53,290 bases of DNA from an uncultured Oscillospiraceae bacterium (lineage in GTDB: Bacteria > Bacillota > Clostridia > Oscillospirales > Oscillospiraceae), in the NCBI GenBank assembly GCA_947626495.1, contig CANQSJ010000017.1, positions 1 through 53,290 on the forward strand, given 5' to 3'. The position numbers and the translations under genes are program-made. Positions 52,415 through 53,290 of the stretch are shown here, piece after piece. Under the pieces are notes generated by a model. The model did no database searches, was not told the DNA's origin, and saw nothing but the letters and a program-made list of their open reading frames with translations. Position 1 is the stretch's first letter, and each line of letters begins with the position of its first letter.

Positions 52415-52421
52415 TGTCGAA
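52415..52421 (+). promoter_or_regulatory. Possible Spo0A box upstream of sigK
   Basis: TGTCGAA within TTTTTGTCGAAT matches the 0A-box consensus. It lies 50 bases before the sigK start in the 201-base gdhA-sigK gap. A 7-base match can occur by chance. Confidence 0.35.
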
Positions 52422-52470
52422 TCAGGACGACCCGGCGGCGCATAGTCTGCTCAGGGAGGTGATGGCGGCT

Positions 52471-53127
52471 ATGCTGTCAGCAACGTTCATGCTGCTCCTG
52501 TCCAGCGCCCTGCTGATGCTGCGGCTGGGGGACAACGGCTCGTCCTTTCCGCGGCCGTTGAAGGCCGAGGAGGAACAGGAGTACATCCGACGGGCCATGG
52601 AAGGGGATCTGCAGGCCCGGAACACCCTCATTGAGCACAATCTGCGTCTGGTGATGCACATCATCAAAAAGTATTATACCACCGCCGCCGACGCAGAGGA
52701 CCTGGTGTCCATCGGCACCATCGGACTCATCAAGGGTGTGTCCACGTACCGCCCGGACCGGGGCGTGCGCCTGGCCACCTACGCCTCCAAATGTATTGAA
52801 AACGAGATCCTCATGTACTTTCGCGGCCAGAAGAAGTCGGCCGGGGACGTGTCGCTGTCCGAGGCGCTGGATACGGACGGAGAGGGGGAGGGACTGGCGC
52901 TGCTGGATACCATCTCCACCGACCCGGACATCCTGGAGGAGCTGAGCCGCAAAGAGGCGGTCCAGCAGATCCGGCGGGCGGTGGACACGGTGCTGGAGGG
53001 CCGGGAGGCGGAGGTGATCCGTCTGCGCTATGGGCTGAGCGGCCGGCCGCCTCTGCCTCAACGGGAGGTGGCGGCCATCGTCGGCATCAGTCGTTCCTAT
53101 GTATCGCGCCGCTGTAATTGTAAGTGA
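52471..53127 (+). CDS. sigK: RNA polymerase sporulation sigma factor SigK, 3' end interrupted
   Basis: 218 codons read. The start ATG 52471 has GGAGGTG at 52455-52461. Residues 1 to about 20 (MLSATFMLLLSSALLMLRLG) are a hydrophobic pro-sequence as in Bacillus pro-sigma-K, so the product would need SpoIVFB-type cleavage. Then NTLIEHNLRLVMHIIKKYY and EDLVSIGTIGLIKGV (region 2), and ISRSYVSR (region 4.2). SigK proteins continue SYVSRIEKxAL; here the frame turns to R-C-N-C-K and stops at 53125-53127, right after R213. The recognition helix is cut in the middle and about 15-25 residues are lost. No frame at 53110-53160 restores them. This is the picture of an inserted element, like skin in B. subtilis or C. 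difficile, whose excision rebuilds the gene. Confidence 0.9.
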   Translation: MLSATFMLLLSSALLMLRLGDNGSSFPRPLKAEEEQEYIRRAMEGDLQARNTLIEHNLRLVMHIIKKYYTTAADAEDLVSIGTIGLIKGVSTYRPDRGVRLATYASKCIENEILMYFRGQKKSAGDVSLSEALDTDGEGEGLALLDTISTDPDILEELSRKEAVQQIRRAVDTVLEGREAEVIRLRYGLSGRPPLPQREVAAIVGISRSYVSRRCNCK

Positions 53128-53165
53128 AACCCGGAAAGCCTTGTGTGTCAGGCGTTTCCGGGTTT
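53127..53165 (+). terminator. Hairpin just inside the sigK interruption
   Basis: Perfect 11-bp stem AAACCCGGAAA/TTTCCGGGTTT (53127-53137/53155-53165) with an inner GCC/GGC. It could end the sigK message or mark the element end; the following tract is only moderately T-rich. Confidence 0.55.
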
Positions 53166-53215
53166 GTGTTCATTTTAGAGTAGCACCGCGCTTATTGTAA
53201 GCGGTCAGGAAAACA

Positions 53216-53290
53216 GGGACAGTCCCGTATTTTGTGTAAACACCCTAAAGGTGCAAATAGAGCGAGATCTCAAAGGGAGCGGAGGGAAGC
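53216..53290 (+). mobile_element. Left end of an IS256-family-like insertion sequence, partial
   Basis: GGGACAGTCCCGTATTTTGT at 53216-53235, continuing GTAAA, resembles the terminal inverted repeat style of IS256-type elements (GTCC-GTAT-TGTGTAAA). The body would extend beyond 53290; no transposase frame and no second repeat are visible, so this is tentative. Confidence 0.4.

Follow-up and report, generated by a model that had tools for sequence, protein, structure and literature searches.

Why should a sigK reading frame break off inside the helix by which sigma-K recognizes DNA, and where is the remainder of the gene, which spore-forming bacteria of the gut require at a late stage of sporulation? 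The question is posed by the right end of the window, i.e. the whole stretch of 53,290 bases analysed here, which is the complete contig C17 of a 62-contig, 2.14 Mb draft genome (G000, 90% complete). The skin element of Bacillus subtilis, a serine recombinase element (SpoIVCA) within sigK to which the arrangement found here is alike, is excised in the mother cell, and a preliminary description of the window had suspected an excisable element of this kind, independently acquired and with an attachment core of its own.

The truncated sigK and its missing part

The NCBIfam model of SigK (TIGR02846) covers the frame 52471-53127 at model positions 2-213 of 227. After SYVSR the frame reads RCNCK and stops, where intact relatives read on as SYVSR-IEKKALEKLR. 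An identical junction is present in nine of 35 genomes of the genus and is therefore not due to chance, so that the cut inside the DNA-recognition helix, as first described, was confirmed. The attachment core had been placed around 53104-53112, which was near the right place: the core GTATCGCGC was found at 53101-53109, and element DNA begins at 53103, slightly further to the left, because the element encodes S-R too (Table 1). Compared with B. subtilis, where the skin is inserted, as we take it, near CIEN|E, the element of the window lies about 100 codons further down and also differs in content.

Table 1. Features at the sigK end of the window (all coordinates refer to the 53,290-base contig)
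Feature	Position	Strand	Basis
sigK promoter-like motif GAATC, 17 nt, CATAGTCT	52419..52448	+	CATANNNT before sigK ATG; sigma factor reading it presumed
sigK 5' piece to crossover (regions 2 to 4.2, helix-turn-helix incomplete)	52471..53102	+	TIGR02846 2-213/227; pN/pS
Crossover dinucleotide GT, Val codon of SYVSR	53101..53102	+	host and element sequence change over here in genus attL and attR; midpoint of attP dyad
attL arm belonging to the element, closing with ATTGTAAG 14 nt from GT	53103..53124	+	near-identical in 9/9 split genomes
Element-supplied stop codon closing the truncated sigK frame	53125..53127	+	sequence
Terminator-like hairpin AAACCCGGAAA...TTTCCGGGTTT, just within the element	53127..53165	+	read by eye
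Multi-copy repeat closing the contig	53216..53290	+	other element copies have the AAGCGGCCATTCATC site at that place

The contig ends at 53290 because this point falls inside a multi-copy repeat, and for the same reason the other side of the element is absent from the window. The 75-bp repeat, which contains GGGACAGTCCC, is also found at C31:1-75 and C18:53072-53146, and 72 of its bases at C18:53179-53250; three of these four genomic places are at or near contig ends. It could be a small dispersed repeat, or else mark the left end of an insertion sequence present in several copies. A search for plasmid relatives of the window end gave 27-bp matches at best (E 0.6).

The missing part was recovered elsewhere in the same genome. 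The sole G000 match to the degenerate pattern V-S-R-I-E-K-x-x-A-L is an orphan sigK 3' piece on the minus strand of C20 (37883-37908), which reads VSRIEKRALEKLREHLEDGM, then a stop codon. It is preceded by the gene of a 534-aa large serine recombinase (LSR; C20:37978-39579; protein P0002), which has zinc ribbon, Resolvase and Recombinase domains; on its other side come genes resembling rimP, nusA and infB, named by eye. Hence the parts that had been predicted, namely an orphan piece starting from V-S-R-I-E-K-x-A-L, an adjoining serine recombinase and a shared core able to restore sigK, are present. Against the idea of a copy decaying beside an intact one, no second intact sigK was found in the draft of G000: a gene on C19, alone in matching the SigK model about as well, scored as SigE above the curated cut-off of the SigE model. 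As read from the sequence, the element of the window thus displays three structural features of a skin: a sigK split with both parts retained, an internal serine recombinase, and attachment sites from which the gene could be restored.

On C20 the LSR is accompanied by genes for a sigma-70 region 4 protein, a histidine kinase, a response regulator, PhoU, an ABC ATPase and a permease. The last five form a pst/pho-like set, judged by eye (C20:40265-45931, locus L083), which apparently lies inside the element of G000, as cargo or through misassembly; other copies of the element carry different genes at this place.

Distribution in the genus and in the order

An intact sigK served as query against the 35 genomes of the genus. 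The gene is cut at the Val codon of SYVSR in nine (G000, G011, G012, G015, G021, G044, G045, G047, G048) and intact in 22; in G007 it is interrupted at another site, G005 and G020 gave matches at the level of sigE only, and G023 gave none. By pattern search, the 3' piece is present in seven of the nine split genomes and was not found in G044 and G045, whose contigs are broken there. An entire element between both sigK pieces lies on one contig in G012 and in G021 (9.7 and 15.9 kb). In the genus search, LSR matches of at least 96% were restricted to six of the nine split genomes, among them G015, where the match is truncated by the contig end, and to one contig of G013. The LSR was not found in G011, G044 and G045, again with contigs broken there, and elsewhere in the genus, these three included, the best match reached at most 37% among the matches listed. 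In G011 the LSR was probably lost to a contig break, because the element arm of attR persists on its 3' piece. The G013 bin (6% contamination listed) holds an intact sigK and, besides, a second contig with attR, which is probably foreign.

A second, unrelated sigK insertion occurs in G007 (C34:4095-7565, locus L049). It measures about 2.8 kb, encodes a 339-aa serine recombinase and a MATE transporter, and sits at CIEN|E, which we assume to be the position of the B. subtilis skin; its core is AATG, and its joined ends would give a near-perfect inverted repeat. The earlier suggestion that the element of the window was acquired independently, with a different attachment core, is supported by this coexistence of two recombinases and two sites in one genus.

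Beyond the genus, named genome contigs were scanned and the best 80 of 495 loci taken (at least 71% identity), five of them from the genus of the window (L138-L142; rabbit-gut Oscillospiraceae bins). The LSR lies at sigK in 77 of these best 80 loci, the others being L153 (at a contig end), L167 and L169. In 65 the sigK 3' piece directly follows the LSR (64 by pattern; L196 was read), and in 65 of the 80 the orphan tails keep both their frame and the IEKxAL motif. In 11 the sigK 5' piece stands beside the LSR on the opposite strand, i.e. the element is inverted; in L194 the 5' piece is 7.6 kb from the LSR. Both ends are present in 17 named loci, 2.4 to 9.8 kb apart. The same layout occurs within single contigs of strain-titled records (e.g., L158, L166, L183, L200); an extra sigma gene next to sigK in L183, considered as a further sigK, was identified as sigE.

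For an even view of the order, 394 genomes from 169 genera were drawn evenly and searched at an LSR threshold of E≤1e-180. The LSR occurs in 20 genomes, G000 counted, and in 16 genera. At 18 of the 19 other loci it lies at sigK, with LSRs 56-75% identical; the 3' piece is present at 15 of the 19 (by pattern at 13, by eye in L303 and L311) and the inverted 5' piece at two, L307 has a 5' piece upstream, and L302 breaks off within the core. At three of these loci the LSR is at zero distance from that of a named locus, and the genomes are probably identical (L296/L155, L295/L158, L299/L163). The findings are best read as an order-wide family of skin-like sigK elements, without evident phage character, with a site unlike that of B. 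subtilis. Recurrence of this cut in many related bacteria of the gut suggests that the element is removed while spores form, like the few skin elements already known.

Inverted elements, in which the LSR faces the 5' piece and the crossover codon is unchanged, were observed in L151, L152, L157, L170, L174, L190, L195, L197, L198, L214, L216, L304 and L305. On the LSR tree, drawn by a quick method and with many weak forks, this orientation required nine changes for 14 rows.

Attachment sites, small ORF and promoter motifs

The crossover could be fixed by comparing the two ends of the element with uninterrupted genes. To the left of GT, attR is nearly invariant (mean 0.99 over 15 positions in eight sites, as against 0.83 in 20 attB), and to the right it follows the host: G047 has GTTTCCAGG there, like its intact sister G049, and its attL reads GTATCGCGC, unlike the attR. 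The base after GT is A in 9/9 attL versus 10/20 attB. Over 15 positions right of GT the means are 0.91 for attL, 0.88 for attB and 0.90 for attR, values which separate the site types poorly because the host codons there are conserved too. The switch between host and element falls on GT; sigK is therefore cut within its Val codon, and the S-R of the window already belongs to the element. The element arms consist of CTTACAAT and 14 nt before GT, and of 14 nt and ATTGTAAG after it, forming a dyad centred on GT, the dinucleotide seen at the crossover in all 64 named direct-orientation sites matched by pattern. Among the nine split genomes the attL arm is most diverged in G021. Given a GT crossover and the host half-site retained in attR, recombination of the att sites would, on paper, restore sigK exactly.

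In many named elements GC-rich repeats resembling the terminator-like hairpin of the window trail the arm. A 15-bp site, AAGCGGCCATTCATC, lies 70-127 bp inside attL (e.g., L158, L183, L199, G015, G047); with up to two mismatches it was found in 14 of the 17 two-ended named elements and six of the nine attL of the genus, and in 0 of 850 shuffles. An inverted copy is present at the start of the LSR in 62 of 77 loci.

Upstream of the LSR a conserved small ORF is found in all 76 named loci having upstream DNA (four of the 80 have too little to hold it) and in all 19 order-sample loci, two of these matches being weak (E of 0.00013 and 0.0045), whereas none was detected at the 13 control LSR loci. 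It encodes 34-59 aa, mostly 40-50 (74 coding sequences), and in G000 occupies L083:5606-5755, i.e. C20:39605-39754. Substitutions at codon positions 1, 2 and 3 number 257, 262 and 469, and since pN/pS is 0.38 (59 pairs, 51 loci) the ORF is regarded as coding. The six of these ORFs that were compared with Pfam matched no family at E≤1.

The motif CATANNNT, presumably a mark of mother-cell promoters read by sigma-E or sigma-K, occurs in the 90 nt preceding the small ORF at 62 of 72 loci, i.e. the 76 minus one with an unlocated start and three with less than 90 nt upstream; the remaining ten lack it inside 90 nt. In 200 single-base shuffles the mean was 6.3 and the maximum 14, a comparison to be read with the relatedness of the loci in mind, which are not independent draws. 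GGCAA precedes CATANNNT by 17 nt in 60 aligned rows, 12 of the 72 loci having been left out of the alignment. Before sigK itself CATANNNT was seen 28-31 nt from the ATG in 24 of 24 genus loci read, that of the window included (six of 30 fetched loci did not match the start pattern and were left out). The sigK motif shares the 17-nt spacing and the form of the -10 with that of the small ORF and differs in the -35 (GAATC versus GGCAA). CATANNNT also precedes spoIIID in 24 of 29 loci, and spoIVA in only one of 29. GGACAAG marks a SpoIIID box. The LSR is preceded by a different pattern, TTGnAA-17-TATnAT, recognized by eye.

Proposed mechanism, alternatives and known systems

The arrangement can be compared with the skin of Clostridioides difficile, in which, according to the published description, the LSR (CD1231) is constitutively expressed from a sigma-A promoter and a small recombination directionality factor (RDF; CD1234, 72 aa), encoded apart from the LSR, is controlled by sigma-E and SpoIIID (PMC5025042). 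As in that element (PMC5025042), sigK is split here, an LSR gene lies directly upstream of the sigK 3' part, the att sites have inverted repeats, and a small ORF separate from the LSR is present, for which the role of RDF is predicted. The product of the small ORF is thus a candidate excision factor, and its layout with the LSR fits, by analogy, the logic of a constitutive recombinase and a mother-cell RDF.

As a mechanism we propose that sigK serves as attB for a family of mobile elements, whose LSR would exchange the GT of the SYVSR Val codon with the GT at the centre of attP. Integration would split sigma-K in its DNA-reading helix and leave the tail beside the LSR gene or, in inverted elements, the 5' piece. 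In the mother cell the CATANNNT promoter would turn on the small ORF, whose product may act as RDF for an LSR placed behind a sigma-A-like promoter; the element would then be excised and sigK rebuilt in time, with C. difficile as the model for the timing. Of this account, the two sigK pieces, the matching att sites, the conserved reading frames, the small ORF with its promoter motifs, the fidelity to one target and the passage between species are seen in the sequences themselves, and timed excision is inferred. The account as a whole, from docking in sigK to timed rebuilding, we consider probable. With less assurance, yet still leaning towards it, we suggest that Oscillospirales and their neighbours of the gut harbour a dedicated class of mobile elements, as short as 2.4 kb and mostly non-phage, which dock in the sigma-K recognition helix, spread between species and bring along their own sporulation-timed excision factor; the developmental switch would thus travel as a self-contained module that can take up cargo and sit in either orientation.

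The alternative that deserves most weight is a plain integrative mobilizable element that docks in sigK and excises only for transfer, in carriers which perform the late stages of sporulation poorly or not at all, any rebuilding of sigK being accidental. Recent spread between species speaks for it: synonymous divergence of the LSR between carriers amounts to 0.07-0.21 (15 pairs; pN 0.002-0.020) as against 0.35-0.49 for their sigK (10 pairs), and therefore the element has moved between species. Relaxase, NikA/MobC and RepA_N genes lie behind attL in G011, and three bins of the genus are without sigK, two of them, G020 and G023, also without spoIVA. However, the family is loyal to one codon in 16 genera, its small ORF has a promoter motif resembling that of sigK, and all nine carriers retain spoIIID and spoIVA, G000 having sigE as well. 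Nor is sigK pN/pS raised in carriers (0.21 in split copies, 36 pairs, versus 0.195 in intact ones, 190 pairs, within the genus; one of 30 sigK loci was lost from this test), which is weak evidence for use because insertion and spread are recent. We therefore judge mere mobilization to be unlikely. In G020 and G023 a spoIIID match is kept; sporulation may have been lost there, or contigs may be missing.

That the truncated sigma-K is itself a working product, e.g. an antagonist, and the tail a dead remnant, appears very improbable: an element-encoded stop does close the frame in the genus, yet the truncation takes away the end of the recognition helix and the orphan tails keep their frame and motif in the 65 named loci mentioned. 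Least credible is an artefact of assembly or binning, or decay of a sigK that has an intact duplicate in the genome. The repeat at the contig end and the mixed G013 bin might be cited for this, against the same junction in nine bins, the complete elements on single contigs of G012 and G021, the single contigs of strain-titled records and the failure to find a second sigK in G000.

Ten element ORFs from G000 and G012 were scanned with Pfam, and none matched a phage structural domain; the matches in G012 include an SBF-family transporter, a response regulator, a HAMP/FtsX protein and an AAA ATPase. LSRs 62-80% identical were found in six of nine loci from viral collections, on the IMG/VR contigs L314-L319, four of which end near the end of the LSR, and therefore phage versions of the element may exist. 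Among the contigs examined no excised junction or circle was seen, and the sole intact attP (L167/L294) is on a chromosomal contig. There (L294, G050:C40, 14260-15943) an LSR of the family accompanies the intact attP, and sigK of the bin is intact on C61. The contig was considered as an excised circle and rejected, as it bears uvrA-, uvrB-, radC- and pyrE-like genes, named by eye, and its ends do not overlap by 15 bases or more. It is thus an exception situated in the chromosome, the LSR having landed elsewhere, or being a remnant.

Elements in sigK have been described from several lineages. The skin of C. difficile, as described in 2016, is prophage-like, comprises 19 genes and belongs to one species, and skin elements were regarded there as an exception in clostridia (PMC5025042). 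In contrast, the elements studied here form a family spread over the order; they measure 2.4 to 15.9 kb, differ in cargo and have the small ORF immediately before the LSR. Clostridium tetani and C. perfringens are reported to possess serine recombinase prophages that likewise attach at sigK (PMC5553647); those are tailed, and the ten ORFs scanned here gave no phage structural domain. The gin element of Bacillus cereus is, according to its description, a non-phage element with a serine recombinase and a separate small factor that rebuilds a sporulation gene, as proposed for our family; it differs by residing in another gene (gerE), by its 28.6 kb and by three recombinases (PMC5595907). In open-access PMC, the titles and abstract openings among the matches listed contained no description of the present family, and in the main text of an LSR survey, as available, 'sigma factor' and 'Oscillospir' do not occur (PMC10083194).

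Within a single order of gut bacteria, one recombinase family thus interrupts sigK in 16 of the 169 genera sampled, so that spore formers of the gut may appear to gene finders and predictors of sporulation to have no intact sigK. The family offers many natural replicates for the question why sigma-K repeatedly falls under the control of DNA rearrangement, and supplies pairs of LSR and small ORF with deducible attP.

Of 13 less related LSR loci in the genus none lies at sigK; one, L133, lies at sigG. In this locus (G017:C133:5142-5572; L133, L324, L326, L328) a different LSR stands directly before an orphan sigG 3' piece, which covers model positions 105-205 and then 206-253 in another frame, and a sigG piece covering positions 2-85 is found at a contig end (G017:C240:3-254). 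This may be a sigG-intervening element or a gene in decay.
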